The notes under the pieces: model-generated
What the model was told of the DNA's origin: nothing
Databases searched by the model: none
What the model saw: the letters and a program-made list of their open reading frames with translations, nothing else
From: Medicago truncatula
Taxonomy: Eukaryota; Streptophyta; Magnoliopsida; Fabales; Fabaceae
Assembly: GCF_003473485.1 (NCBI RefSeq)
Contig: NC_053045.1
Location: 36,244,494-36,308,493 of the forward strand
Direction: 5' to 3'
Length of the DNA: 64,000 nt
In this document: positions 3,178-58,294 of the stretch, in pieces
How positions within the stretch are numbered: position 1 is the first letter of the stretch
Layout of the letters: every line of letters begins with the position of its first letter
Made by a program: the position numbers and the translations under genes

Positions 3178-5395
3178 ATGAGCACTCGGACAAGCAGGGT
3201 GCCTGTTGGTATCAGAACTAACCGGCGGAGGAAGGCAGCTATTGATCTTGACCTTAACCGAGTACCGGCTGCTGAACATTCAACTGCTCGGAATCCGATT
3301 GCTGAGAATCCATCTGGTGAGAATCGTGAGCAGGAGAGGCGTTTGACTCAGTTGGGGCCTCAAGAAGTTGAAGTTCAAGCTAACCAGCAACAGGAAGTAG
3401 AAGTTCAAGCTAATCAGCTACAGCTAGTTGCGCAACCTGAACCTACTTTGATTGATGTGGAAGCCATTGATGACGACGATGTTGTTTTATCTTCCCCGAG
3501 GGCTTTTGCTGAGGTTTGTCTCCTTTTTTCTATATTCCTTGTTTCTATTGTCTTCTAGTTGTTACTAGATTTCCTTGTTGGAAATTGATCTCATTTTTTT
3601 GTGTCTATCTCATCTTAGGCCAAAAACAATTCTCGAAGAAATCGTGGAAGGACTGTAGTTGATGTCGATTTAGGTAAACATGAAACTCCTTTATTCTCAC
3701 AAGCAAACATCATGTTTTTTAAAGTTGACAATTATTGTCAGATAGTTTTAATTTTATAGCCTGTACATTTATCTCAGCCAAAGTAATCAAAGGAAATAAT
3801 AGAACTCAAGTGGCATATATCCTAAAAGTTTATTTGTAGCCCATTATTTGTTTCCCTATAGTTATGTAAGGGTTAGGGAGTGTACTATTCCTGCTAGCTA
3901 TGGAATTAAGTCATGTTTTTCCCAGTGCTTGCATTTATATTTTTCAGCATCGCTTCCCCTAACTTTCCCCAATCCATTTCTATGCTGATTAGGTTAGAAT
4001 GCCTTGTACTGATGTTGTTGTATTGTATCCCATCACATGATTTTTGTTGTGTAATAAAATAGTTTGTATCTTTTTGCTGATATAGCCTGTCAGTCATGTT
4101 TTTTGCAGAAGAGCAGATTAGGTTAAGCAACAATAATCGCAACAAACGCAGACGAGAATCTCCAAAACGATCAATTTTCAACTGTGATCTTTATATAAAT
4201 TTGGACGCCAGCAGCAGCAATACGGTAAAATTTCTTTCGGACATGTCATACTGCTTTATGTTCAGTGCTTTTTCAGCCTTCATTGTCTGAATAAATTAGC
4301 TGTCAGATTGTACTAATTAACTTTCAACGTGTGACAAATATTTAGCTTTTGAATTAGTAATAGTTAGTTTTCAACCTTGTGGCATAGAATTTGGTACTGC
4401 TTTATGATTTGTCGTGGCATAGAATTTGGTACTACTTCTTTATGATTTGTTTCTAGCAATGATCTTTAGGCAATTGTTTACAGTACCCTTTAGTTTATTT
4501 GTTATAGTTGATCTAGAATTGCATTTAGTTTAATAAACAGATCCTTATAATATATTGTCTAAATATAGACCACTTATTGCACAATTATATATATTTACTT
4601 CTCAAGACTATGTCCTTCTATGGTTCTTTCGGGGACCCGAGGAGTTAGTCAATTTCAGTTGTAGGACAGGGAAAATTCCTTCTGTGGGGACAGGCTACCA
4701 CTGAGCAAAAGGAGGGCTGGCATGGATATTTTAAAATCAGAGATAGTAGATTTATGGTGTTTGTAATTGAAATATTTTTACTTGCAAGTGTCGCTTGCAA
4801 TCGCTGCTTGCTTTTGCAGATGATGTGTTGTTAGAGCTGTTCATTACATCAAACATAATTTGACTCTACCTTTTATAGAGCCGTTACCAATACTTTTTCG
4901 ATGCACTAGTTTTTTTTCCTGCTTTTTTTAAATCTCTTTAGTACTGCACTGCTTTAAATCACATTATTTTCAATATATAAGTTTTGCCTCATGCTTGGTA
5001 AAAAAAAAAAGGTGTTGCTTCATCCTTGGAGATTTGTTTTAGTTTTTATAATACATTTCTTTATCGTCTATTGTTATTTAATCACCACCTCCAACAAACA
5101 AAAACTTATATAAATGCTATGAAGGTTTACTGGAGTTCTAATTTTTGACTTGATTTGGATGTCCCTTCTGTAGATGGAAAGTGTCAAAAAGCCACCTGAG
5201 CCTCCAAAGGAACCTGTCTTCACCTGTCCTATATGCATGGGCCCTATGGTTGAAGAAATGTCAACAAGGTGTGGTCATATTTTTTGCAAGTCGTGTATCA
5301 AGGCTGCTATAAGTGCTCAGGCAAAATGTCCCACCTGTAGAAAAAAGATTACTGTGAAAGAGCTTATAAGGGTGTTTCTGCCAACAACTGCTTGA
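3178..5395 (+). CDS. RING-finger E3 ubiquitin ligase, RNF4/STUbL-like
   Basis: Four coding exons (3178-3513, 3619-3673, 4109-4224, 5174-5395) join in frame to 242 residues. The C-terminal C3HC4 RING starts at about residue 187 with CPIC and continues through CGHIFCKSC to CPTC; all eight zinc ligands and the proline after the seventh cysteine are present. The N-terminal half is disordered and carries IDLDLNRVP near residue 22, a phrase I associate with plant RNF4-like proteins. At about residues 100-107 an acidic run leads into VVLSS (DDDDVVLSSP), which fits a SUMO-interacting motif. It should therefore transfer ubiquitin from an E2 and may target SUMO-modified nuclear proteins; the SUMO link is inference. 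The 3' UTR probably contains another intron, with acceptor near 6304. The short open frames between 5420 and 6196 are UTR or intron noise. Confidence 0.85.
4377..4450. repeat. short tandem duplication in the RING gene intron
   Basis: Two adjacent copies of a unit of about 36-40 bases containing gtggcatagaatttggtact lie in the third coding intron. They differ by a few bases, so the duplication is not brand new. Confidence 0.7.
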
Positions 5396-18136: not shown

Positions 18137-19610
18137 ACTTTTGGAGGAGGAAGGAGCCATTTAGATCCTTGAATCATTCCAAGCGTAATGAAAGGTTTAA
18201 CCTCTGCTGCACTTAGTTGTTTTCCGACAGTTGCACGTCCTTTGGGATCTGACTTTGGTCCTGTGTTCTGATATTCTCCAAAGTATGAAGTTCTGTGAAT
18301 AACATAATGTATTAATGTTAAAAATATATTTAACCTAAAATGATATATATACACACTAACATATTCTAATGGATGAATATATATCATAAAAATGCAGAAC
18401 TGCAAAGTTGAATTAAGGAATTTACTTGTCAAATTCAGGGTGCATGGTGTTATCCCACCCTTTAGGATCAACAACATTACTCATAGTTGAGTAAGCAAAG
18501 ATAATTTTAGGATAAGTCATCCATGCTCTGGCTAAGAAAGTGGTAGATCCAGTTCCAGTAACATCACAATGCACAAATGAGTATAAATCAGCATCTGATA
18601 CACTTTTTCTTGCCTGTGCTACTATCACTGTTGGCCCAGCGTCACCAAGCGCTCTCAATTCACTTTTCTGCATCATCATATTTTTTTTTTGTTGTATTAA
18701 ACCAGATGCATTGCAGCAATTCTTGAATTCCGGATAATTGCTCGTAGTTGTGTTATGACTTTAAAACCATGAATACAACACATGTTAATACCATGAAAGT
18801 ATGTTGTTTACTTACAAAATATAGTGACGTCCCACTTCCAAAAATGAAATCCACAGTGCCTTGAATTAAGCAATCTTTAAAAAAATGATTATGCCTGTCA
18901 TCACAAATTGTGTCCTGGAACCCTAAAAACTTGCAATTATAAAATGCTGCTTTGTCACCAGAAATTCTCAATGCTACTGCTTGAGCACCTGCGCTCTTTC
19001 CATCTGGTCTTGGTGCAGAATTCTGTACTACCAAAAAATTAATTCAATTGACATTTTTTACTTTGGTTGATGTTATAGCAAAGATTTCGTCAAGGACAGA
19101 TTTTAGTATACAAACCGATATGAGCATGTTAGCAGCTACAAAATAATCTGATTCAACAATCAATGTAGCACTATCAACCGTGCCATATTGTTTTGCAGTT
19201 CCACCATATGTCAAATTTGGCATATTTGCTGGTGTCCCATACAATGTAACAAAAGGTTTTGTCCTTTCAATTTTGATTTTCTCGTTATAATTTCCACCAC
19301 CAATGCTCACAATTACACGTTTGGTGTTCCCGGTAGGTATGCTATTAATCGCATCAGTGATGGTTTTGAAATCACCACTACCATCTTGCATTACTTTAAT
19401 AACTTTAGCACCAGCCTCTGCAGTCACTAATGCAGGGTCAAGGGCACTTTTTCTTTGTTCTAATGGACCAACATTGCTATTAAACCATGAATCTAATTGA
19501 GTTTTTTCAGCAGGAATCGGAATTGTGTCATCTGATAATACACCTTTGACCGTAAATAATAATACTATGATAGCAATATTAATAGCATAGGTTCTTGTTT
19601 TTGAGACCAT
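18133..19610 (-). CDS. pectin methylesterase, PPME1-like, secreted
   Basis: Minus-strand exons 19116-19610, 18816-19022, 18426-18667 and 18133-18292 join in frame to 367 residues. Residues 1-26 form a signal peptide, and there is no inhibitor-like PRO domain. The catalytic beta-helix keeps GFQDT (Asp202), VDFIFG (Asp223), AGAQAVA with Gln179 and the arginine of LARAW (Arg281), where most family members have LGRPW. The enzyme demethylates cell-wall homogalacturonan, releasing methanol. Length and the RAW motif point to the PPME1 subgroup, known in Arabidopsis from pollen tubes; pollen expression here is inference. It lies on the opposite strand inside the UNG array, so it is a bystander of the UNG duplications. 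TATA-like AT-rich sequence lies beyond 19650. Confidence 0.92.
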
Positions 19611-19649
19611 TTTTTCTTGTTTTTGAAAGTTTTTATTTACTTGTGTGAA

Positions 19650-20151
19650 TATGTGTAATTGGTGCTGGAATTTATATGATATTTCTGAGACTTAATTTGG
19701 AGAGTATTCAATTTGATTCAACCATTTTTGTGTGAAGAGAGCTAAAATTAAACATGGGGTTTATAGGTCATTGATTTCAAGTTCATAGAGTATATTTTAG
19801 TTTATTATTAAGTACGTAGTTAAGGATTGTGGTTTCTTTGTCACACAAAAAATAGATTGTGGTTGCTAACCATACAAAATGTCTAAATTGTAGAGTTTGG
19901 GAGAGTGATTCTAGGCCTTGAATCTTAAGAGAAAATTTAGCGTAAGTTTTTTTTATTTTTTTGAATCGAATCTAAGTTAAGAACACATCTTATAAAATAA
20001 AATAAAAATGCGCTAGATCCTATATGGTTTTAAATTGTACCAAATACATCACAATTTTTTTTTTTGAACAAATATACATCCACAGTTTTTAACATTATTA
20101 TTATTTTTTGTTTCAAAAGAAAAAACATTATTATTATTTTTAGTAAAAAAA

Positions 20152-25825: not shown

Positions 25826-26220
25826 TTTTGGCCCTCTGTCTTTTCAAAAGTTGCGATTTTGGCCTCCTAACTACTTAAAATACAAAACAGTCCCCCTATT
25901 TATTGGATCTTTGGTAGTTTTGACCCCCAAAGTCAATTTTGACTTGGTCAACGTACACGTGTATTTTTTATTTTTGTAATTAAAATAAATTATTTTATTT
26001 TATTTTTTATATTTTAATTATTTAAAAAAGTATATTTTTTAATAAAAAAGAAAAAAATATTTTTTATTTTAAATTGCCACATCAGCGAAGACCAAGTCAA
26101 AATTGACCTTGGGGGCCAAAACTGTCAAATATCCAATACATAGGGGGCTATTTTGTATTTTAATTAGTTAGAGGACCAAAATCGCAACTTTTGGAAAGAT
26201 AGGGGGCTAAAAGTGCAATT
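25826..26220. mobile_element. long foldback element with gccccct-type arms
   Basis: Arms of about 150 bases are inverted copies: the left carries aaaagttgcgattttggcc and caattttgacttggtc, and the right the complements gaccaagtcaaaattg and accaaaatcgcaacttt. The centre is pure AT. There is no coding capacity. It sits next to a second, unrelated foldback. Confidence 0.75.
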
Positions 26221-26310
26221 AAACCTTAATTTTTCTATTTCTTTCAATCTAATTATCCTTGTATAATCATAAGAGTTTGCAAGTGCACATTATTCCTTCT
26301 ATTGAGACTA

Positions 26311-26598
26311 GGGTTAATGGTGTTTTACCCCCTGTAATATAGGTCATTTTTTGTTTTCCCCCTGTAAAATATTTTTTTTGATTTACCCCCTGTAAAAAAA
26401 TTTTTTTTTGGAATACCCCCTAATAGGTCATAAAAAAACGAAAAAATTCTGCAAAAAAAAAAAAATAAAGTCGTTTTTTTATGACCTATTAGGGGGTATT
26501 CCAAAAAAAATAATTACAGGGGGTAAATCAAAAAAAATATTTTACAGGGGGAAAATAAAAAATGACCTATATTACAAGGGGTAAAGCACCGTTAACCC
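26311..26598. mobile_element. near-perfect palindromic MITE with 9-bp target duplication
   Basis: The element starts gggttaatggtg and ends caccgttaaccc; almost its whole length is a palindrome (accccctgtaat, ggaataccccctaataggtc and complements). It is flanked on both sides by TTGAGACTA (26302-26310 and 26599-26607), a 9-bp target duplication as made by Mutator-superfamily transposases. It has no coding capacity. Confidence 0.85.
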
Positions 26599-26607
26599 TT
26601 GAGACTA

Positions 26608-28070
26608 TTATGCAACAGGAGCTTCTACAGTGCAGTCAAGAACCTGACTTTTTTAAAAAAGTTATTTTATTTAGCCAATAGTATAACACCACTCTAAGAC
26701 TAAACTTTACCTTATTACAAATCAATAATCATACAAAATATTAATTACTTTTGATTTATTAACTTTATTTTAATTAGAATTAAATCATTTATTAATTATG
26801 CACAAATTAATTCATTTTTAATCATCCTCTTTCTTCGGTTTCTCCATCTTCATCCGCAGAAGGGGAAAATTAAGGATGTGCATGTTCCAAAACAAAAAAT
26901 CACATGCATGTGTCATGTGTCACTCTCCATTTTCCAAAACCCTAAATAACAACAAAGACAACATGGTTGATTCTAACGATGACCCATCAAAGATTTCATC
27001 GATCTCAATCGATTCACCTAATGGTAATCTTCCTAATTCATGTTTCTGTATTGAAATCTTTTCTTGAATATTTAATTTTCTGGGTGTTGTTGATTGAATA
27101 TATTTCAATTGATTTTTTCAAATTTTTGTTTGATTTAGGATAATTCAATAAATCTGCAGAAGGGGTTTCTCTAACCTAAAATGAAGATGATAAGATTTTG
27201 GAGTGAAAGGAATGAAATAATGACAAAATAAGATGATAAGATTTTGGAGTGAAAGAAATTGATGAAGATGAACATATTCAAACAAATGAAGATGAAAGGG
27301 ATTCAAAGTTGATGTTTTACCCAATTTTGATTTATGATTACAAAATAAAATAATAATAATAAAAATGTTTAATTTTGATTTAATTGCAATAAGTAAAGAT
27401 ATAATAACACATCTTATAGGTAAATGTGCAATACATCATATAATTTGATGTAGCATGGATTAAATACATTGATACTCAATGATTGACCATATGGTTAACT
27501 TCACCGAAAAAGTCATTCTCATGACTTCAGCGTAGAATTTTCCACCACCTCCTCATTCGTTACTATATTTTCTATGTATTCCTACGATGCTTGGTTTTAA
27601 GCCCATATTTTTCAAAACTTATTTACACATTGTTAGTCATTGCTATTTGAAAAATGGGTACCGGTGTGTTTTCCACTAGTGTTATTGGCCCCTGCTTACA
27701 AATGTTAGGATTTCGTTGTGTTTTTTGAAATTTGTAAAAAAATCCTGAAACGTTTTATACGGGTCTTTCATAAATATAAATACGAGTATTTAAAAAATTT
27801 ATTCAAATCGAGAAACATTTTATAGACCTTTCCTAGGAAAAAATATACACATAAAAAATGTTTTAGGTGGTTTTACTGGAAATAAATATCTGACATGTTA
27901 TGTGAGAGTGAATTCATAATGGATTAGAAAATGTTGAAAGCGATGGTGAAAAATCAATGTATAGAAACTTAAATTGTAAAAGGGTAAACTTGGATTTTTT
28001 TTTTTTATGGTGATTTGTAGGGGTATATCGTAAAATTTCAACTATACAACATACTTTTTTTTTAACTTCG
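26608..28070. other. AT-rich spacer, nothing recognised
   Basis: A short direct repeat of aagatgataagattttggagtgaaag occurs at about 27183-27260 (the unit is given here only in outline: gatgataagattttggagtg). No gene is recognised. Confidence 0.45.
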
Positions 28071-28077
28071 GTTAATC

Positions 28078-28651
28078 TAAGCCCATACAGTGGGCCCAAA
28101 TAGCCTATGTTGTTTCTGTAACCCTAAATAAATACATTCCTGCCGCACCACATCTTTCTTCATCAATCTCTCTTCCATTGTTCTCTTCTTTCTCTCTGCA
28201 TCATTTATTATGTCGATCCTTCACACCTCCATTGTTTTCTTCTTTCTTTGCATCCTATCTTCTCTCGACCCTCTCTCATGCTTCTTCTATTTGTATCATA
28301 CACCTCTTCTTCTTTTTTGAACTAGCAAGTTGTAGCGGCTGCCTTTACCCAAATTGACACCGCACTGGCCCCTTTCCACTTTCGTACCACATCGACGCGA
28401 TTGTGCATGATGTAGGCGTTTCGGCCGCACCATCCACTTTTTATAACAGAGGTTGATAAATCCATCTTGATTTAATCTTAATAGCAAGTTTTGCATGATT
28501 CAATTTTATAGATTTACTGTTTGCCTAGATTTTAGATCTTCTAACAATCAAAGTAATCAAATTTAATTTATGCGACTCTTTGATGATTTTTTTTTAGGGT
28601 TTTGAAGAGTTTTGCTTCGCAATGGACGAGAACAATGATTCGATATTGGAG
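28078..28651 (+). promoter_or_regulatory. promoter-like segment and possible orphan first exon
   Basis: AGCCCAT (about 28079), TGGGCCC (about 28091) and AACCCTAAAT (about 28120) form the site II plus telo-box set seen in plant housekeeping promoters. A CT-rich leader follows. At 28622-28651 a start codon opens a ten-codon exon (MDENNDSILE) ending at a good donor, ggaggtaaat. No downstream exon is recognised before the inverted repeat at 29381, so this may be the 5' end of a gene cut off by rearrangement. Function unknown. Confidence 0.35.
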
Positions 28652-29380
28652 GTAAATCATTTTCTATCCCTTAATGTATAATATTTAATCTTGCTTTGTA
28701 CATTCATTTAATCTTTTTTAATCTTTATACTTGCACACAATCAACATCAAAAGTAACTAGAAAATTTGTTTGATCTTTTTTAATTTTTATACTTGTGAAT
28801 CAAACTTCTGTTCTGTGAGTTAACAATAACCATACTTGTCATTTAGTTGATCCACACTTTTGGTGTATTGATTCACAAATATCACCTTATACGCATTTAC
28901 ATATTGAGAGATCAAAATCCTCAATTCTACTTTGAAAGAAAAAAATTAAGACACAAAAATTGTTTGATTGAAGAATCTTTTGGCTCTTCAACACAAATCA
29001 ATTAAAATTGAATTTTTATATTAAGGGATGCACTAATGTTGATTGAGTTTTTAAGCAATCCTCCAGGGATGCACTACTGTTGAATTCTTCAGGAATTCAT
29101 TAGAAAAATATTGAGTTTTTATAAGCAATCCTTCAGGGATGCATTCCTTTTTTAATATAATATAGTTCTTCATGAATTATATTATAGATGTGATCAATCT
29201 CTTATGCAATCCTCTAGGGATGCATGAATGTTGAATTAGAAATAAACACTAATTTGCATAATAACGATAATGTGTATCTATAAGGTACTGATTCCAATTA
29301 ATGGAATTATAACACTAGCCAATAATCATCGATACAAAAAAAAAAAACTTTTTTTTTTGCAAAGAAAATTTATACGAGAG
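28652..29380. repeat. dispersed short repeats gcaatcctycagggatgca
   Basis: The phrase occurs at about 29053-29073, 29123-29143 and 29205-29224, with a partial copy at about 29023. Spacing is about 70-80 bases, so this is a degenerate tandem array. No gene is seen in the rest of the stretch. Confidence 0.6.
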
Positions 29381-29423
29381 TTAGTATACATTCTCTGTTG
29401 GTTAGAGCATCGTGCTGGGAACG

Positions 29424-29643
29424 TGTTATACAACTCATAGAATAATAACAAGAATAGAGGGAAGAAGAGAGAAGGAAGAGAGAATAGTGCAATCTATTAT
29501 TCTCATGTGTGTACAAGTATGTTACATGTGAGCTCTATTTATAGAGAAAGACAATAACTTATAGAACAACCCCAGTAGTTAGTATGACTCGTTAAGCTAT
29601 TTGTTATATCATATATGGACATCCGCTTATAATATTCATAACA
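29424..29643 (-). mobile_element. copia-type solo LTR in the left arm
   Basis: Read on the minus strand it starts TGTTATGAATATTATAAG and ends TTGTATAACA, giving TGTTA...TAACA termini over 220 bases. It contains a TATA-like CTATAAATAG and a CT-rich tract. The sequence outside its 3' end (cgttcccagcacgatgctct) resembles a primer-binding site. No internal retrotransposon domain follows. Confidence 0.65.
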
Positions 29644-29789
29644 AATTGTCTATTTGTTCAAATTTTTGAAAGAAAAAATTAAAATTATATTTGTAATAAA
29701 AAAAAATGTTTTTAAATGTCTTATCATAAATAAATAAATAGATTAGGTATGCCGAAACTCATTTTATCATAAATAACGAATTGTCGACA

Positions 29790-30615
29790 CCAATAAAGAA
29801 TGGTCAAAAACAATCCGTAATTTGAATAATTTTGAGAAAAACCCTATCCATAAACCTGTTTCATCCTCACATACTTTTTATGCAACATCGCTAAATTCAT
29901 CTCCTTCATCTATTGTTTCACCTGCTTATGAGTTTTCCAAACAATCGTTAATGGATGTTGCCACCACGATTTCTGGAGGAAAAATGGAATATGCGAAGGA
30001 GATCCTTTCTCCTTTCTCTCAAACACAAAACCCAAAACTGAATTTTGATCGTTGGTTATTAGATTGCATGGCTTTAGCGCTTAAATCGCGTATGGATAAC
30101 ATTGAAAATCCACCTCCAATAATGGAATTGTTTAGCAAAGAACATGTTGAGTCGACTCACCTTCTCCTTGATCACTCTCTTTGCTTCAAGCTCTCTTTCA
30201 TGGCTGCCAATATTGCAATCCTCGAAGTTGCATTTGAAGATACAACAAAGAGAGTGAAGAATGTTTGTGTTGTGGATTTTGATATTGGTAATGGAAAATA
30301 ATACATAAACCTTCTCCAAAAATTCCATGTGCGTCTCAACGGTTAACTAGCAATGTTAAAGATCACGACTTTGACGGTGAACGTCGACGACGAGAATCTG
30401 AAAACCATCGGAGAACTTTTGGGTCGAGAAGTTGAGTTTAGGAATCGGGTTGAATTCAAACCGGTGAATTGGGACTCAGAAGATATTATCGGTGTGAATT
30501 TCGCATTCAACCTATACAAAATGCCAGATGAGAGCATGTCAACAGAGAATCCACGCGACACGCTTCTTCGTCACGTGAAATCCACGCGACTGGCTTTGGT
30601 TGGATGGGAAGAACT
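29790..30615 (+). pseudogene. GRAS (SCL8-like) fragment, left arm
   Basis: The frame 29822-30301 includes FDRWLLDCMALALKSR, LLLDHSLCFKLSFMAANIAI and VCVVDFDIGNGK, the LHRI and VHIID region of SCARECROW-LIKE 8 proteins. A stop after GNGK and a further stop after the HVRLNG phrase break it. The continuation at 30353-30600 (MLKITTLTVN, ENPRDTLLRHVKS) has lost part of the FEFK region and ends at the centre of the inverted repeat. GRAS proteins are transcription regulators; this piece lacks the C-terminal PFYRE/SAW part and is dead as a protein gene. Confidence 0.8.
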
Positions 30616-30633
30616 CCCCCCAATCAACAGTGA

Positions 30634-31494
30634 GAGTTCTTCCCATCCAACCAAAGTCAGTCGTGTGGATTTCACGTGACGAAGAAGCGTGTCGCGTGGA
30701 TTCTCCGTTGACACGCTCTCATCTGGAATTTTGTATAGGTTGAATGCGAAATTCACATCGAGAATATCCTCTGAGTCACAATTCAGTGACTCGCGGGTTA
30801 ATTTCGTGAGTTTTATGTTCACCGGTTTGAATTCAAACCCGATTCCTAAACTCTCAGCTTCTCGACGCAAAAGTTCTCCGTTGGTTTTCAGATTCATCGT
30901 CACAGTCGTGATCTTCAACATTGCTAGTTAACCATTGAGACGTGCATGGAGTTTTTGGAGAAGGTTTATGTATTGTTTTCCATTACCAATATTAAAATCC
31001 ACAACACAAAGATTCTTCACGCTCTTTGTTGTATCTTCGAATGCAGCTTCGAGAATTGCAATATTGGCAGCCATGAAAGAGAGCTTGAAGCAAAGAGAGT
31101 GATCAAGGAGAAGGTGAGTCGACTCAGCATGTTCTTTGCTGAACAATTCCACTACAGGAGGTGGATTTTCAATGTTATTCACACGCGATTTCAGCGTTGA
31201 AGCCATGCAATCCAATAACCAACGATCAAATTTCAGTTTTGAGTTTTGTGTTTGAGAGAAACGAGAGAGGATCTCCTTCGCATATTTCATTTTGCCTTCA
31301 GAAATCGCAATGGCAGTTTCCATTAACAATTGTTTGGAAAACTCAGAAGCAGGTGAAACAATAGATGAAGGAGATGAATATAGCAATGTGGCTAAAAAGG
31401 TAGGTGAAAATGAAACAGGTTTCTGGATAGGATTTTGCTCGAAACTATTCAAATTACGGATTGTTTCTAACCATTCGTTGTTGGTGTTGACCAT
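30634..31494 (-). pseudogene. GRAS (SCL8-like) fragment, right arm
   Basis: This minus-strand partner of the left-arm fragment is better preserved. An open frame of 188 codons starts at 31494 (MVNTNNEWLETIRNLNSFEQ) and runs through VVDFNIGNGKQYINLLQKL. One stop separates it from a second frame, 30921 down to 30634 (GIGFEFKPVN, RESLNCDSEDILDVNFAFN, PDESVSTENPRDTLLRHVKS). It ends at the palindrome centre, before the domain is complete. Confidence 0.8.
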
Positions 31495-31634
31495 TCGTTA
31501 TTTATGATAAAATGAGTTTCGACTTACCTAATCTATTTATTTATTTATTTATTATAAGACATTTAAAAACAAATCTTTTTATTACAAATATAATTTTATT
31601 TTTTTCTTTCAAAAATTTGAACAAATAGACAATT

Positions 31635-31852
31635 TATTATAAATATTATAAGTGATGTCCATGTAGTAAATAAGTTAATGAAACATACTAGTAGATTATT
31701 GGTGTTGTTCCATAAGTTATTATCTTTCTCTATAAATAATAAAGCTCACATGTAAATACTTGTACACACATGAGAATAATAGATTGCACTATTCTCTCTT
31801 CCTTCTCTCTTCTTCTCTCTATTCTTGTTATTGTTCTATGAGTTTTATAACA
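31635..31852 (+). mobile_element. copia-type solo LTR in the right arm
   Basis: This is the inverted partner of the left-arm LTR, starting tattataaatattataag (TG end mutated to TA) and ending ttttataaca. It is followed by cgttatcaacacaatgctct (31853 on), a primer-binding-site-like stretch. Confidence 0.65.
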
Positions 31853-32024
31853 CGTTATCAACACAATGCTCTAACCAACAGAGAAGGTATACTAACTTGG
31901 ATCTTACACATTATAATATCTAAAGCACTAAATGTGAAAACCACCTGATCTATTTTCCTTTTATTGTTCTAAGCAATTTTGTATTCTTACTCTTTACTGT
32001 GTTTATTTGAATTTGTTTGAGCAG

Positions 32025-32091
32025 GCACTTCTCTCAAACTAACCAATATCTTGTGCAAACGGGGATTGATCCCATAGATTGGCAACTATAA
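32025..32091 (+). pseudogene. orphan last exon of a fifth UNG copy
   Basis: After a good acceptor (tttgagcag) the exon reads HFSQTNQYLVQTGIDPIDWQL and stops, with the same 67-base length and phase as exon 7 of the other UNG copies. The preceding 130 bases match intron 6 (cacctgatctattttcctttt), and the following 300 match the UNG 3' flank (gatgttctcggatcctgaa). Nothing else of the copy remains: at 31895 it is cut by the inverted repeat. Confidence 0.9.
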
Positions 32092-32370
32092 TATCTATTG
32101 TAGAGTTCAAGTGCACTTTTGAGCCTGTTTTCCTTGATGCATAAATGGTTCTGTAGATTCCAAATCACCAAGAAAAGTGGTGCTTTTGGCCTGATGTGTT
32201 GTAACCTCGTATATTTTGTAGTACTGACCACTACCATATACTACTGTATACTGGTGGCACTTTTGCATAATGATGTTCTCGGATCCTGAACTGATTTCGT
32301 GTATTATCCATGTACTGTCTTAATATCAACAAATATTTTTACTTATAGTGGATATTATAAAAAAGTCCTA

Positions 32371-33907: not shown

Positions 33908-36900
33908 ATGGCCTCTGCATCCTCCAAAACCCTAATCGACATTTTCGGTCGAGCTTCAAAGCGCTTGAAACCCACTCTCTGCAAATCCGAAGATAACATC
34001 AATTCCTCCTCCACCCTCACCGTCGACCAAAAATCACGAATCGAACACAACAAAAATCTCGCTTTGTCCAGAAAGAACCGCAAAATCTGCATCGAAAGGG
34101 TTTCCAAACACAAAGGTATGTTCATTTGTTTAAAAAACGTAGCTTTACAGTAAAAACACGTTCTTTAGTTTCTTCTAATGTTATTGATTTATCAGAATCT
34201 TTAGCTTCGGGTTGTGTGAAACTAGAGGAGTTGCTAGTCGAGGAATCGTGGTTGGAAGCTTTACCTGGTGAATTTCAGAAAGATTATGCTGTTAATCTCT
34301 CTAAGTTCGTCGAAACTGAGATTTGTAAGGATGATTATGTATATCCTCCTGCGCATTTGATTTTCAATGCTCTTAATACTACCCCTTTTCAATCTGCTAA
34401 GGTTGTGATCCTTGGCCAGGTTTGTGGATTTCGATTTCGATTTTGATTTGAAATTTATCTCCCTAATTTGGGCATGTTTGGATTAACTTTTTTGAACTTA
34501 TCTACTTGCATTGGAATTTGTGTGACTGATTGAGAGAATTTATGAAAACAGCCTATGACATGTTCTTAAGTTGTTTTCAACTTATTTTCATAAGCTCTTC
34601 AAGATAGCCTATGAAAATAGTTTATAGCTTATACAAAAACAATTTAACTTTATTTTTTCTTTGATTATAGAACTTGCAAGCACATATGCTATAAGCTGAA
34701 AATAAGTTGGTTATCCAAACAAGTCTAAATCTCTTTCTTTTACTTCACTGATTTTGGTTTTGGTTTTGGTTTATTTAGGACCCTTATCATGGACCTGGTC
34801 AAGCAATGGGGCTTTCATTCTCGGTTCCTGAAGGAGTCAAAGTTCCATCTAGTTTGGTTAATATATTTAAGGAGCTTAAGCAAGACCTTGGTTGTTCGAT
34901 TCCGTCTCATGGTAATCTTGAAAAATGGGCTGTGCAGGTAAGTGTTGATATGCTACCCTTAGGACTTCAATTTTGTTTTCTGTTTCTTTTTTAAGTTTTA
35001 ATGTTGTATTGTTCTTTTTTTTAATGTGTTTTTCCATAAGGCACTTATTAGGTTTGTTGGCAAACATTATTTGTTTTAAACATTTCAACTTAGACCTGAG
35101 TCGAAACACATTTCAACATTATTTGTTTTGATGAACCAAGTGGAAAAACGTTTCTTTTATTTATATTTACAAAGACTGCAATATGGTACCAAAATGGAGG
35201 TTTTCTAAGATTGCAATTAGATTTAGCCGTCTACTCTGTCTATTTTGTGATAAGTTGAGCAAACTAGGAGAGGTTTTTGGTGTGGCAGAGGGATTGAGGA
35301 GGTGGGATTTGAGATGGCGTAGGGGGTTATATCAAAGGGGAGAAGGAATTTTGTGTGAATTGAGGAGGTTGCTAGAAAATGTGGGATTGAAAGATAATGA
35401 TGAGGAAGATAAATGGATTTGGATGGATGGATCAACAAACTTTTATTCGGTGAGTAGCTCATATAAGGTGCTAATGTCGGGAAGCTCAAATATGGCTAAT
35501 GCAAAGTATGCAAGAGCTTTGCATAAGACTATTCCCTCCAATGTCTTCTTACTTGCTTGGAGATTGTTTGAAAACAAAGTTGCTACAAAGGGCAATATTT
35601 GCAAGAGAGGAGTTGATCAAAATATGATTCATTGTGTTGTTGGTTGTGGTGGAGGGCAATCTGTAGCTCATCTTTTCTCTTGAGTGTCAGATGTTTGCTA
35701 CTGTTTGGCATGCAATATGTAAGTGGATGGGAGTTTGCTCGGCCATGCATCATGAAGGGATTGAGCGCTTTGACTAATTTGCCGGGTTGATCAGTAGACG
35801 GATAGCGTTTGATTATCGTGCCAAGGTTGTTTGGTTCGCTTGTATTTGGGTTATTTGGAATGCGAGAAATGACAATATCTTTCACAATAATGATGTGATA
35901 TTGGAAAACTTAGTGGATGAAATACAAAAATTATCTTAGAATCGGTTGAAATTTAAATTGAATAGTATCAATTACTCTATCTCTAAATGGTGCTTGAATC
36001 TGAGGCCTTGTCTTGGCCTGATTGAATAAACTAGTTGAGTCGAATGTAAGGGCAGTCCGATTTTGTTTTGAGAAGCGTGGTTCCAATGTGTTTTGCTGCA
36101 TCAGTTTTGACTTCATTTGAGTCTCAGGTTTTATTGTCTGGATGGATAGAATAGATTCTTAAGGTGGACTGGTTTTTGTTGACTTGCTGGTATTTTTTGT
36201 AGGGATCTTCAGGCTGTGTTTTTACTTTGATTTGGTCTCAGGTGCCTAATTTATTATGGTGGTGTGGTTTTTTAGAGGTTTAGTTGTGTGGTTATATAAT
36301 GGGCGCTGGTTTGTTGCTTGAAGTGGTTTTGGTGTCAGGTTGTGGTGGGCTTAGACAAGGGGTCATAGTTTGGTTGTCTGCATAATTTTGCAGGTGGGGT
36401 GGTGGCTTCAGTTAGGTGGGTGGGTTACAAGGATTTGATGGGCTCATGTCTTGGAATTGCGGTCTTCTTTGGATATTTGAATCTTGTTTCAGTGATGTTA
36501 TTTTTGCTGTATTGTGGCTGGGGTATATAGTTTTTTGATTTTACTCTTCCATCGTGTTATAGTTTAATAAAATTCCTGTCTTTGCAAAAAAATGAGTACT
36601 ATACTCAGTGCACGGATGGTTAAGTTAAAAAAGTGTAATTTTTTAGATTGTTTAGAAGCTACTAAAAAACTTTTGGAGATTGAATATTTTGATTATTTGA
36701 TATTGCGGTTCTTGAAAGTTGAAAGAAGCTTATCCAAACATTTCATGCTATGTCTTTTTGCAATAAACATGATTTCACTGAATGGCCTCAATCTGCTGTA
36801 AGAAATAATCCATAACCAGATGTACTAAAATGACGAATTTGTGATTTATAGACTTGTTTACATTGAACAATTAAAGCATACAGGCTAAGTGAACATATTT

Positions 36901-44239: not shown

Positions 44240-45640
44240 TTTCTCAATTTTATCCCTGGTTCGGATTTCGTTTTCTAGATTGTATTTTTAGAATTTTGCA
44301 GATGTTTCCGGATTTAAATATCCTGAATAATGTTTTATCAGAACTTTTGCAATTTTAAACTTTACAATTCGTAAAATAAAATGCGAATAAAATAAAAAAC
44401 ATAAATAAAAAGACACAAACATAAAAATAACTCATTTTATTAATATATGAACAATACATTACAATAATTTTCAAGCTTTTTAAGCTTATTACAATATATG
44501 AACAATACATTTCTAATCTCCTAAGAGCATAATTCTAATCTCATAAGATCTTAACCACTGCTATGTGATAGGACATAGCAGTAGGTTCCCTATTGAAGGA
44601 AAACTTGAGGAGGAGGGAATAGGAGGGCGGGAAGAAGAAAACAATGTCCCTGAGGGAGGTGGGGGGTGCTCGAACTTACGCTCAGACAGGCTAAGCTAAG
44701 AACCACACTGATCCACATGACCCTCAAATGAACCACACTTCTTTGCAGCGCGGTACCATCCTCATTGACCGTTCATACAAACCCTGAAAGTTTTCAACGA
44801 TGCCCTTATCTATGAAAGGCCAACGATTGAAAACCATGGTTGTAGAAGGAAGAGGAGGATGAGAGGGTGGGAGAGGATGGTGTGTGAGCAATGGTGGAGT
44901 TTGGAAAACTATTTATAGGGAGGGGTGGGTCAAAAACGGTTGGGAGGCCATAAATGCAGTCAAAAATGTGGTAAAACGCATTTTTTGACTTGATCACCGA
45001 CAAAAACGTGTGGTACAGACCACCGACCATGACTGATGCATTATGGAATATAAAATCCGGAATGCACTTCTGTTTTCCGGATTAATACGATAATGGTGAA
45101 CGAGAGAAAAGTTGGCACTTCTTGTAGGGCTAAGGACGTTCTGGAATGTATAATCCGGAAAGCTTCAGCATTGGATTCTTTTGAAAGAGAGTCATTAATG
45201 TGGGTTTGAACGGTTACAACCACTAACACGTTTTCATTGACCGTATTAATGACCTAAGACTTTGTTTTATACTATAAATAGGCTTCCATCTTCAACAAAT
45301 ACCTTCATTCTTCATTTCACCTCTTTTATTCCATTTTCTTGAAATGTTTTTAGTTTTTTAGGGGTGTCGGTGGTGTCATGGTCATTGTTGACCGTTCATG
45401 TGAGCCCTGCAATAACATTGCAGCTTGTGTGGGGTTCATATAACGGTCAACAGAGACCCTTGGCATTAAAGAAAGACACAAAAAAACGCATAACATCTGG
45501 TCCGGATTAAATTTTCCAAAAATCACTAACAATCTGGTCCGGATTATATTATCCGAACCAGGGGTAATTTTTGAAATTTTGCAGGACGCGCGAGAAGGCA
45601 GCAGGGTGGGAAAAGTAATAGTCGTGATTGTTGCCAAATT
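44240..45640. mobile_element. unclassified repeat with divergent TATA cassettes
   Basis: The outer parts share inverted ccctggttcggat (44253) and atccgaaccaggg (45550). Six copies of TCCGGA are scattered through it. A minus-strand TATA box (CTATAAATAG, 44909-44920) precedes a CT-rich leader and a 37-codon frame (44837 down to 44724: MVFNRWPFIDKGIVENFQGL...). A plus-strand TATA box (ACTATAAATAGG, 45271-45282) precedes a similar leader and the phrase gttgaccgttcat, which also occurs inverted near 44767. It looks like an old transposon with two promoters; no transposase is recognised. Confidence 0.4.
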
Positions 45641-49093: not shown

Positions 49094-49965
49094 AATTGTT
49101 TTGAATTTGAATACTCTTAAAACGTGCATTTGACCTTCTCGATTCAGCTTCCCACATAGATCTATCTCTAAACACACAGCACAACGCCAATTTCTGATAG
49201 TGTTATTAGATTTGGGGTTTTCTCTTTTATCGTACAAAAACCCTACCCTTAGTTAGCTTCTTTACTTAATGTGACTTCGTTAGTTTCTTTCTTTATTTCA
49301 GATCTTGATTAATCTCTCTGCTTCATTTCATGCACATGCAATCATTTTCAAATCTCAAACTGTTACAACTAATTCATCTCTGTTTACAAGTTTTAGTTAA
49401 GTGATTTTGACATTCTATAATTTAGATATTTTTAAAATAAGTTAGTTTGGATTGAATTGTATAAAAGCTATTTTGTTGTTACAAAATCATCTCATTATTT
49501 TCTCTCTCTCTTAAAAAGAATCTTTTTTTTTTTTTTTTTTTAAAAGTTGCTCTTTAGATTATGATATTTTTTATTTTATACAAAAAGCTATAACAAACTG
49601 ATGTAATTTGGTTAAGTCCAAAATCATCTATTGATTATTGCTTTGTGAAATAGTTAGTTATTGTTGTTTTGAATATTCTCTTTCACTGCTTTCTGACTCA
49701 CTGTGTTTTTGTTTAACTAAATTGATTGGCTTTGTTGTTTTAGAAGTGTGTTGTGTAGCCAAGGTTTAAATAAAACTGTTGGGTCAGTTAGAGATATCAA
49801 TGCTTATAATTTATACATGTCTCTGCAAGCAATTTTCTGCAATTTCATGAACTGTAACCACTAGTGTGAATAATTAACTCTTTAAGAGCTGTAGTTGTGA
49901 ATTCTCAAAGGATTTACATTTGTTTTTCTTTGTTGCAGTAAGAGAAGAGTGTTATAATCTGAGCA
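48956..49965 (+). promoter_or_regulatory. DWF1 leader exon and 5' UTR intron
   Basis: A CT-rich leader (about 48990-49041) ends at ctcactcag before gtacac. The intron 49042-49938 starts with a pure CT run (about 49055-49093) and ends in tttgttgcag; the start codon is 27 bases downstream. CT-rich leaders with a leader intron are common in strongly expressed plant genes. No clear TATA box is seen. Confidence 0.6.
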
Positions 49966-52033
49966 ATGTCAGATCTTGAGGCTCCCCTGCGCCCTAAGAG
50001 GAAGAAGATTTGGGTTGACTATTTTGTTCAGTTTCGATGGATCCTTGTTATTTTTGTGGTTCTTCCCATTTCCTTCACACTTTATTTTCTTACATACCTT
50101 GGTGATGTGAGATCTGAGTGGAAGTCCTTCAAGACGCGGCAGAAGGAACACGATGCCAATGTCGAGAAGGTCGTCAAACGTCTCAAACAGAGGAATCCCT
50201 CAAAGGACGGCCTTGTCTGCACCGCTCGTAAGCCGTGGATCGCTGTTGGGATGAGAAATGTTGACTATAAGAGGGCTCGTCATTTTGAAGTTGATCTTTC
50301 TGCTTTCAGGAACGTTCTCAATATCGACAAAGAGAGAATGGTTGCTAGGGTAGAGCCCCTTGTCAATATGGGGCAGATTACCAGGGTCACTGTGCCTATG
50401 AATCTTGCACTTGCTGTGGTTGCTGAGCTGGACGATCTTACCGTTGGTGGCCTCATAAATGGTTACGGGATAGAAGGAAGTTCCCACAAATATGGCCTCT
50501 TTTCCGATACTGTTGTGGCCTTCGAAATTGTTCTGGCAGATGGATCTCTTGTTAGAGCCACCAAGGATAATGAGTACTCTGATCTATTTTACGCTATTCC
50601 GTGGTCTCAGGGAACACTTGGGCTTCTTGTTGCTGCAGAGATCAAGCTTATACCCATTAAGGAGTACATGAAGTTAACCTATAAACCGGTTGTTGGCACC
50701 CTGAAAGATATTGCACAGGCATATGCTGATTCTTTTGCTCCCAGAGATGGGGACCAGGATAATGATGAGAAGGTTCCCGACTTCGTTGAAACTATGATTT
50801 ATTCGCCAACACGAGCTGTGTGCATGACAGGGAGGTATGCTTCGAAAGAAGAGGCCAAGAAGAAGGGGAATAAGATAAACAGTGTAGGATGGTGGTACAA
50901 AACCTGGTTCTACCAACATGCAGAGACAGCACTCAAAAAGGGGCTGTTTGTAGAATACATTCCCACCAGAGAATATTATCATAGGCACACAAGGTGTTTG
51001 TATTGGGAGGGAAAGCTTATCCTCCCATTTGCTGATCAATGGTGGTTTAGGTTTCTGTTTGGCTGGTTGATGCCCCCCAAGGTTTCTCTGCTCAAGGCAA
51101 CTCAAGGTGAAGCTATTAGAAACTATTACCATGAAATGCATGTTATCCAGGACATACTTGTTCCTCTGTACAAGGTGGGAGATGCACTAGAATGGGTTGA
51201 CCGCGAAATGGAGGTACACTTTTCCATTCACTAACCTTGATAATGTTTTAGTTGGTTTAATTTTTTCAGACTGTTAAATTCAGGGTGCGGCGGTAAGCCA
51301 TTTAAAGTTCCAGTTTCAATCACAAGAAACTAAAGTTGGGGCTGAGCTTTCATGTGGTTATTATATTTCACAAACAAAGCCCATTTCCTTTCTCAACATG
51401 TTTTTCACCTTTGAAGTTTACCGCTTTTTCAAAAAACCTGTCTTGAGTAAATCTATTTTTTTGAAAACATTGCTCTGTTTAATATCAATTCAAGCTGATA
51501 TGTCAGGAAGTTGTCTTGTATGATTCAGTTGCTGCTATCATATGTTTTCTTCTTTACATTATTGATTTTCATAACAGATCTACCCCCTTTGGCTCTGTCC
51601 ACACAAACTGTACAAGCTGCCAGTCAAAACTATGGTTTACCCGGAAGCAGGCTTTGAGCTGCAACGCAGGCAGGGAGACACTCAAGATGCTCAAATGTTC
51701 ACAGACGTTGGAGTTTACTATGCACCAGGTCCTGTGTTAAGGGGTGAGGTGTTTGATGGTGCAGATGCTGTGCGTAGATTGGAGAACTGGATGATTGAAA
51801 ATCATTGTTTTCAGCCACAGTACGCTGTGTCTGAACTGAATGAGAAAAGCTTCTGGAGGATGTTTGATGCTGGTCTATATGAGCATTGTAGGAAGAAGTA
51901 TGGAGCTGTTGGGACCTTCATGAGTGTGTACTACAAATCAAAGAAGGGCAGGAAAACTGAGAAGGAGGTGCGTGAAGCTGAGCAAGCACACCTTGAAACT
52001 GCATATGCAGAAGTTGATCAACCGGCAGACTGA
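49966..52033 (+). CDS. DWF1: DWARF1/DIMINUTO, delta-24 sterol reductase
   Basis: Two coding exons (49966-51213, 51578-52033) join in frame to 567 residues, the length of plant DWF1. Residues 26-46 form a membrane anchor after a basic N-terminus. The FAD-binding PCMH-type domain covers about residues 85-240 and includes DDLTVGGLINGYGIEGSSHK and YSDLFYAIPWSQGTLGLL. The long C-terminal part carries RNYYHEMHVIQDILVPLYK and RMFDAGLYEHCRKKYGAVGT, hallmarks of the DHCR24/DIM family. The enzyme converts 24-methylenecholesterol to campesterol in the ER, feeding brassinosteroid synthesis; plant members have a calmodulin-binding segment near the C-terminus. The gene is intact and well conserved. Antisense open frames inside it are shadows. 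Confidence 0.97.
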
Positions 52034-54784: not shown

Positions 54785-55051
54785 CATAATGTTGAGAATT
54801 GTTGTTGACACATTGCATAAGGTTGTGTCACACGAGTAATTTATCGAAATGCCGCTCGACAGTTAACTCCCAAGGAAAACTGAAAACTTCGGCAGTTAAC
54901 TGCCGAGGAAACCTCAAACCTGTTTTTTTTTTTTTTTTGACAAAAACCATAAATTGTCATTAATAATATTTATTGATTTTGAATGTTTCCATCATTATTT
55001 TGGTACGTTTCAAACAATTGCAGTATTATACTTATGCATATATATCTTAAT

Positions 55052-56220: not shown

Positions 56221-56282
<62 letters not shown>
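56221..56282. repeat. (TA)n microsatellite
   Basis: About 30 TA units in a row, at the junction of the nested and outer foldback elements. Confidence 0.95.
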
Positions 56283-56285
<3 letters not shown>

Positions 56286-56578
56286 CTGCAATTGTTTGAA
56301 ACGTACAAAATAATGATTGAAACATTCAAAATCAATAAATATTATTAATGACGATTTATGGTTTTTGTAAAAAAAAAAAAAAACACAGGTTTGAGGTTTT
56401 CTCGACAGTTAACTGCCGAAGATTTTAGTTTTCCTCGGTAGTATACTGCCGAAGTTTTCTTCGGTAGTTAACTGCAGCTGGTTCCATAATTCGGCAGTTA
56501 ACTACCGAGGGACATTTGAGTAAATTACTCGTGTTTCTCAGCCAATGCATATGTGTCAACAACAATTCTCCATGATGT

Positions 56579-57209: not shown

Positions 57210-58294
57210 CTGTTCTATTTTCTATGTCGGTTTTCTGGTGGACGTGGAGACACAAGAATTTAACGTGTCTAAATCATGAAACCTGGTCCATTCATCGGCT
57301 TAGTTATCATGTTCATGTCACGGGTGAAACTACCGACACCCGTTTCCAATCAGTACCGGCTACTCCTTTAGATGTCATGGTCCGCTGCAGGGGCGGATTC
57401 ACCTTGAAACATGGTGTGGCACTTGCCACACCAGATTATTCCCTATATTTTTTTTTTTTCATATAATAAACCTAAACAATTCTTTATATATAATATATGT
57501 TGCTACTTTGACATGATTATTTACATGGCCTAGTGGTTTGAGTTTGCGTTGTTGATTGGCTTGTACAGTGTTCAACACTCTGCTGTACCTTTTTAATAAT
57601 GTTTTTTTTTTTAAAATATTAACATAAAATAGTAATAACAAAATGTTGATTGCAGGGAATCGAACATTTAACCATTCAAATGAAACAGACATGCTTAAAC
57701 CAATTTACTAAAGACTTTTAGATGTCAAAATCTCATCTTTTTAGTATATAAAGTAATATATTTTGCTTCATAGTTTTTTTTTGCCACACTGATATCGAAT
57801 GTCTGGATCCGCCCCTGGTCCGCTGGAACAATAATGACTTTAATTGCATTGTTCTAAATGTGGATGGTAGCTGTTTAGGACCCTATTTGCGCAGGCTATG
57901 GAGGTGTCATCCGAAACTCTGCTGGTCTCTACCTCTCGGGGTTCTCTGGTTTCATCGATTCAACAACAAATATTTTGTTTGCCGAGCTTACTGCTATTCA
58001 TCGCGGTCTTCTCCTGGCTGTGCAATTGGGCTTTGAGGAAATGGTTCGCTATTTTGATTCTATGCTATCCGTCAAACTCCTCACTGAGCATGTTTCCATC
58101 TATCATGCCTACGCTGTTTTACTCCATGATATCAAAGACATTTTGTACACTTCAAATTTCTCCATTCATCATTGTCTTCGTGAAGGGAACCAATGTACTG
58201 ACTACATGGCGAAGTTAGGAGCAAACTCATGCCTCTCCTCCATCAGACCTGCCCCCTTTGATCAGGAACGACGCCATGGGAACCTATTTTCCTA
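57210..58294 (+). pseudogene. RNase H-like (RVT_3) retroelement remnant
   Basis: Downstream of the inserted element the translation gives WNNNDFNCIVLNVDGSC and, after a frameshift, CAGYGGVIRNSAGLYLSG, then LFAELTAIHRGLLLAVQLGF and FSIHHCLREGNQCTDYMAKL. These are the DG, ELxA and HxxREgN..D segments of the RNase H-like domain found at the end of plant L1-type elements. A MITE interrupts it at 57388-57817, and a frameshift lies at about 57878. It is not a functional gene. Confidence 0.75.
57388..57817. mobile_element. hAT-like MITE inserted in the RNase H remnant, 8-bp target duplication
   Basis: Inverted ends CAGGGGCGGATTCACC and TGGATCCGCCCCTG are flanked by GTCCGCTG on both sides (57380-57387, 57818-57825). 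Internally the minus strand contains gttcgattccctgc, a B-box-like phrase, so part of the element may derive from a tRNA-type SINE. No protein is encoded. Confidence 0.9.

Follow-up and report, generated by a model that had tools for sequence, protein, structure and literature searches.

The window analysed here is a 64,000-nucleotide stretch of the Medicago truncatula genome (C4:36244494-36308493), and it contains a large inverted repeat at 29379-31897, recovered as one self-alignment of 2593 columns with 85.8% identity (E 0.0) when the sequence was compared with its own reverse complement. The left arm occupies 29379-30616, with its GRAS homology in sense on the plus strand, and the right arm 30634-31897, with the GRAS sense on the minus strand. 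Gapless pieces of the two arms are 90-94% complementary, and 17 bases separate 30616 and 30634. This spacer (30617-30633) is asymmetric in that the GRAS homology of the right arm enters it to about 30625, so that approximately 9 GRAS-derived bases at the centre are absent from the left arm, and the remainder consists of a few filler bases. The original prediction of a 2.5-kb inverted repeat at 29381-31895, with arms of about 1.24 kb and an 18-base spacer, was thereby borne out to within a few bases. Between the arms 1111 matches, 105 substitutions and 11 indel events were counted, corresponding to 8.7% substitutions and a K2P distance of 0.093, and the repeat is, as proposed, old enough for its arms to have diverged by both kinds of change. 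At substitution rates of 0.5-1.1 x 10^-8 per site and year the arm divergence would correspond to some 4-9 million years.

From the outside inwards each arm is made up of a retroelement long terminal repeat (LTR) piece, a stretch of about 140 bp and a GRAS fragment. The GRAS part makes up the inner two thirds only, and the LTR and intervening sequence the outer third. The AT-rich stretch between LTR and GRAS lies at 29644-29786 in the left arm and has its mate at 31489-31634 in the right arm. The genome that was searched comprises 429.9 Mb in 42 contigs, and C1-C8 (43-65 Mb each) are among the contigs with matches. The AT-rich stretch gave two matches, namely the two arms, in a search that passes over simple repeats and words of very high frequency.

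Homology to the Pfam GRAS model is present in both arms, as had been claimed for the facing gene pieces. The E-values were 2.6e-18 and 1.8e-14 for the right arm and 2.8e-11 and 6.7e-6 for the left arm, the last of these at 25.7 bits being just below the 27-bit cut-off, so that three of the four arm pieces score above it; the whole nearest gene reaches 296.6 bits. The left pseudogene fragment (29787-30616, plus strand) carries an internal deletion of about 360 nt and a stop codon at 30344-30346, both of which are common to the right fragment (30625-31488, minus strand). Private to the left arm are a stop codon at 30299-30301, a 36-nt gap and small frameshifts, and private to the right arm is a 15-nt gap. 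The deletion and stop common to both arms indicate that the doubling affected a fragment that was already dead, unless a later exchange between the arms spread these lesions.

The closest relative of the fragments was found at C7:27021758-27022593, 88% identical to the right arm and placed within an uninterrupted frame of 658 codons. The fragment corresponds to bases 3408-4243 of this locus in reversed orientation (L044) and resumes at about 4612-4644, 369 bases on, and a second alignment of the deletion region gave a gap of 358 columns; the deletion is therefore put at about 360 nt, its exact edges being ambiguous. When the genome was searched with the GRAS part, five matches were returned, all of them in the two arms, in the gene on chromosome 7 or, more weakly, in one on chromosome 6. 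In PMC5612761, 59 Medicago GRAS genes are given, one of which, MtGRAS53 of the PAT1 group, is on chromosome 6, and the sole complete chromosome 6 GRAS match in the genome should be this gene. By interpolation of gene numbers the chromosome 7 parent gene may be MtGRAS55/Medtr7g057230, also of the PAT1 group; this identity is uncertain because MtGRAS55 is given as 1155 aa in the same paper against the 658 codons of the frame. The name SCL8, under which the fragments had first been described, does not occur in the main text of that paper. The first match in a PDB search was the rice GRAS protein 5hyz, PDB matches not separating the GRAS subgroups, and one right-arm piece gave no match in PDB.

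The LTR of a degenerate LTR retroelement lies at 29424-29643 on the minus strand in the left arm, and its copy at 31635-31852 on the plus strand in the right arm; the ends of both were placed by eye, and in both a TATA-like motif is directed outward. On the left side the retroelement extends outside the repeat and, having lost a large internal part, reaches leftward as far as about 28801. Besides the two arms, the LTR piece matches 38 places at 70-75% identity among the best 40 of 184 candidates. One genomic copy (L053) has paired LTRs that are 99% alike over 214 bp, TGTTAT...ATAACA ends and, as judged by eye, a GTTTT duplication at either flank; a search of this copy for open frames of 150 codons found none. 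Of 28 genomic copies of the retroelement that were compared (L011-L038), 23 give a single alignment that crosses position 29379 unbroken, mostly from about 29650 to 29155 of the window, and in the other five the alignment ends short or is fragmented. On the right side the retroelement is cut off at 31894-31897 and is followed by an intron of a uracil-DNA glycosylase gene, with an AACTT overlap of 4-5 bases at the junction. Since the retroelement runs through the left end and the right arm stops inside the retroelement, the repeat is without transposon-like ends. With the left retroelement continuing outside and the right arm joined to a glycosylase intron, it looks like an inverted duplication made by end joining and not like a transposon.

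The glycosylase sequence at the junction (31894-32362, plus strand) is an orphan last intron and exon. The window region 11616-39566 holds a tandem array of about four uracil-DNA glycosylase copies or fragments together with this orphan last exon. The enzyme was named from the copy at 23.4-24.0 kb by a PDB search, and searches of three glycosylase open frames against Pfam returned no family. Uracil-DNA glycosylase being a repair gene, its amplification in a plant may merit a look. Further Pfam matches in the window, at 19047-19691, 49963-51231, 35135-35680 and 57879-58292, are a pectinesterase piece, a FAD-binding domain protein and two reverse-transcriptase-related pieces (zf-RVT and RVT_3). 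Two short spacer-free palindromes are present at 26310-26599 and 25826-26212, the former of which is 91% like one in locus L061 and 72-73% like one in L020 and belongs to a dispersed palindromic element.

A long and almost spacer-free inverted repeat that contains a gene fragment together with element sequence is what would be expected of a Pack-type or foldback transposon which had captured a gene piece between long terminal inverted repeats, and the dispersed palindromic element at 26310-26599 lies nearby. However, a single pair was found in the genome, no target-site duplication was seen by eye in the flanks, and the left end is no true end, being crossed by the retroelement in most of the copies compared. 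The element piece is moreover an LTR, which elsewhere has a terminus of its own and, by eye, a 5-base duplication. The genome search and the inspection of the borders thus yielded neither defined ends, nor a target-site duplication, nor a second copy. The single pair and the restriction of the AT-rich stretch to the two arms speak against a multi-copy element, and transposon capture, which we consider very unlikely, was rejected on the grounds of the one pair and the lack of true ends. An error of assembly, conceivable in principle because large inverted repeats are hard to assemble, is very unlikely here: the arms differ by more than a hundred substitutions and several indels, they carry private lesions beside the shared ones, their outer neighbours are different, and the genome search showed no other copy that could have been misjoined.

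The divergence of the arms was compared at 781 sites, at which 43 changes are private to the left arm and 19 to the right arm (p 0.003). Such a difference is not predicted by one duplication followed by equal drift. An excess of C-to-T and G-to-A changes was rejected as the cause of the faster left arm, as these make up 23 of 43 changes on the left against 13 of 19 on the right. By codon positions 1, 2 and 3 the private changes number 13, 12 and 18 in the left arm and 8, 5 and 6 in the right arm, and third positions hold 24 of the 62, a share that does not differ from one third (p 0.42). Divergence is 9.7% in the LTR, 6.4% in the AT-rich stretch and 8.7% in the GRAS part (p 0.53). Perfect runs at least 21 bases long add up to 437 bases, the mean of shuffled alignments being 433. 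Thus neither codon positions, nor the divergence of the parts, nor the comparison with shuffled runs gave a sign of purifying selection on a duplex or on a reading frame. The longest perfect run, 72 bases at 30148-30219 in the GRAS part, was matched in only 7% of shuffles and is suggestive at most. A coding past of the arm progenitor was considered because 15 of the 19 changes on the common branch seemed to be at third positions; no claim is made, since the chromosome 6 paralogue does not allow changes at third positions to be polarised. Among the 24 private third-position changes this outgroup has the ancestral base in 8, the derived base in 7 and neither in 9. The usable positions 1 and 2 hold 16 changes, of which 10 fall on the chromosome 7 branch, 4 on the common branch and 2 are unplaced.

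To the left of the repeat a truncated gene 5' end (27564-28758, plus strand) points into it. This flank segment carries GGCCCA and AACCCTAAA motifs, which we take to be promoter-like, and a short exon with acceptor-like and donor-like sites. Most of its length is 86% like C5:43626716-43627839, and its part 28043-28705 is 72% like C3:8898394-8899090. GGCCCA-like and AACCCTAAA motifs and the splice-bordered short exon are common to all three segments, the frame of the exon not being kept in C3 and C5. In the window the segment is followed by the retroelement piece and then by the GRAS palindrome, the relative at C5:43.6 Mb runs into a 3.3-kb palindrome whose arms hold a high-copy repeat (1386 candidates), and the relative at C3:8.9 Mb runs into a palindrome of 1.7 kb. 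At C5:44.17 Mb there is a fourth relative, of smaller extent, with one palindrome that is homologous to the C3 palindrome and another one upstream, the ends of which are presumably those of a legume transposable element. No similarity of the C3 palindrome to the C5:43.6 Mb and window palindromes was detected with nhmmer. Five pieces of the C3 and C5 palindromes gave no Pfam match over the cut-off, and loci L047, L051 and L057 gave no Rfam match at the gathering score.

As a control, 49 loci were used, being 75 loci minus 26, namely those bearing the arms, those related to the flank segment or to the C3 or C5 palindrome, and the neighbouring stretch L052. These 49 loci amount to 185 kb with overlaps kept and are mostly GRAS genes and LTR elements, so they are not a random sample. 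A spacer-free palindrome of 770 bases or more was found in none of the 49; two spacer-free palindromes of 267 and 303 bp were present, and one locus had facing arms of 0.65 kb about 1 kb apart. The excluded L052 held no inverted repeat of 300 columns or more. Five remoter relatives of the segment that were inspected (L061, L062, L063, L065 and L066) have no such palindrome within 1.5 kb; L061 holds one of 296 bp, and a palindrome of 433 bp is present in the wider locus of L062. These arrangements could be read as a small family of promoter modules placed before long palindromes at four loci (C4, C5:43.6, C3:8.9 and C5:44.17 Mb) with three unrelated palindromes, in which hairpin-RNA genes would keep the promoter and exchange the hairpin, the window carrying the GRAS version. 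The palindromes behind the three relatives of the flank segment are not explained by a one-off relic. Nevertheless we regard such a family as very improbable, as two of the four loci share ancestry and the window was the starting point of the search, and the association may be due to chance and repeat insertion. If the recurrence were upheld against a random control, it would raise the question of whether such hairpins gather behind particular promoters.

The predicted fold of a 2519-nt RNA of the repeat is one hairpin of -1800 kcal/mol with 1162 pairs, 1141 of which are arm to arm and all no more than 60 nt from register, as had been anticipated for a transcript of the region. The arms have 177 perfect 21-mers in common. 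The 21-mer comparison with other genes covered the chromosome 7 gene, the chromosome 6 paralogue and eight other GRAS loci (L001-L008), 79 GRAS matches being listed genome-wide. The expected 21-nt matches to an intact GRAS gene were found in the chromosome 7 gene (C7:27.02 Mb), with which the right arm has 100 perfect 21-mers in common and the left arm 40, and 25 are common to all three sequences. The perfect tracts of the right arm lie between 30695 and 31379, and aligned 21-nt windows with no more than two mismatches to the chromosome 7 gene number 469 of 804 in the right arm and 298 of 741 in the left. Three perfect 21-mers are common with the chromosome 6 paralogue, and none with the eight other GRAS loci.

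The proposed capacity for siRNAs against the parent gene is consistent with this identity to one intact GRAS gene, which would suffice for siRNAs to reach it, and on sequence grounds the locus might produce small RNAs and silence the chromosome 7 gene in trans. The locus could on this basis be an active long-hairpin siRNA locus, in which transcription would start at the promoter-like 5' end (28.0-28.7 kb) and perhaps terminate at the 3' end of the glycosylase sequence, and the hairpin transcript would give rise to siRNAs that lower the expression of the chromosome 7 GRAS gene. The strongly paired predicted hairpin, the many perfect 21-mers to a single gene and the direction of the promoter-like 5' end into the repeat all speak for it, and a precedent is given in PMC2708354 by two rice pseudogene pairs in inverted arrangement, with small RNAs from the hairpin. 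We nonetheless find it unlikely. The arms bear no sign of selection, the TATA-like motifs of the LTRs are directed away from the hairpin, and about 600 bp of broken retroelement separate the promoter-like segment from it. Most antisense small RNAs of 145 rice pseudogenes are, furthermore, 24 nt long and were linked by the authors to action in cis, according to PMC2708354. Main-text passages of PMC4212123 on Medicago root small RNAs do not name the locus. Regulation of SCL8-type genes in trans, which had been suggested, is left unsupported by the even divergence of the arms without codon bias and by the outward direction of the LTR motifs.

It had also been supposed that the inverted duplication might be a young MIRNA locus, and its origin and relation to a target do match the inverted-duplication model set out in PMC3237417. 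This reading is extremely unlikely given that the arms exceed 1.2 kb, that a scan of the whole window gave no Rfam family at the gathering score in the repeat, and that no short duplex is clearly better kept than in shuffles. The sub-threshold Rfam matches at 30568-30683 are to six different miRNA families and reflect the centre of the palindrome; a short, precise foldback of a recognisable family was thus not found in the repeat. A GRAS gene is a target of poplar miR473 according to passages of PMC3630063, and MIR473 was considered at 30167-30261 in the left GRAS fragment. It was rejected as probably a chance match, with 26.9 bits against a cut-off of 52 and no match in the chromosome 7 gene. 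Elsewhere in the window the Rfam gathering score was reached by MIR2587 at 45373-45466 and MIR2629 at 56447-56515, which we assume to be families of Medicago miRNAs. The MIR2629 match adjoins an inverted repeat pair at 54856-55045 and 56264-56452 and may therefore be derived from an element.

Of the candidate hairpin locus first put forward, the inverted duplication of a GRAS fragment is thus real and can fold, and neither the MIRNA reading nor the regulation in trans is supported. The locus is probably a non-mobile, decaying inverted duplication of a GRAS fragment that was already dead. In a fragment of a GRAS paralogue about 360 bp would have been deleted and a stop codon would have arisen, and an LTR retroelement would have come to sit upstream of the fragment at a distance of about 140 bp. 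Two copies of the resulting LTR-spacer-GRAS unit may then have been fused head to head, with the GRAS ends inward and a few filler bases between them, and the second copy would have broken within the retroelement and joined a glycosylase intron of the tandem array through the 4-5 base overlap. Both arms would have drifted afterwards. We infer this order of events, and the end joining, from the structure of the borders and the lesions. Fusion of two broken copies and a second break in the right retroelement would account for the longer right GRAS homology at the centre and for the continuous retroelement outside the left arm. RNA transcribed from either side would form a stem of 1.2 kb that could be cut by Dicer-like enzymes, and some siRNAs, acting mostly at the locus itself, are plausible.

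If silent, the repeat is a well-preserved case in which end joining next to a retroelement has made a long inverted repeat out of a dead gene piece. If small RNAs are made from it, it is a clean natural experiment for asking when an inverted duplication that arose by accident starts to act on its relative, with one clear target, many sequence differences that separate the arms and the target from each other, and arms that are unequal in their match to the target.

Some known systems are similar in part. The MIRNA model of PMC3237417 likewise starts from a segment that is related to a possible target and has been duplicated in inverted orientation, although the Medicago repeat is without a short precise precursor and its arms are far longer. 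The inverted rice pseudogene pairs of PMC2708354 consist, like the repeat described here, of two facing fragments of one parent gene, the transcript of which would fold back; their stems are about 155-185 bp and are accompanied by small-RNA reads, whereas the Medicago arms are 1.24 kb. The chalcone synthase repeats of the soybean I locus are, according to PMC6710647, a legume locus of repeated gene copies too, and a source of siRNAs and of a change in seed-coat colour. There gene copies, a phenotype and siRNAs come together, whereas the Medicago repeat holds only an old pseudogene fragment.
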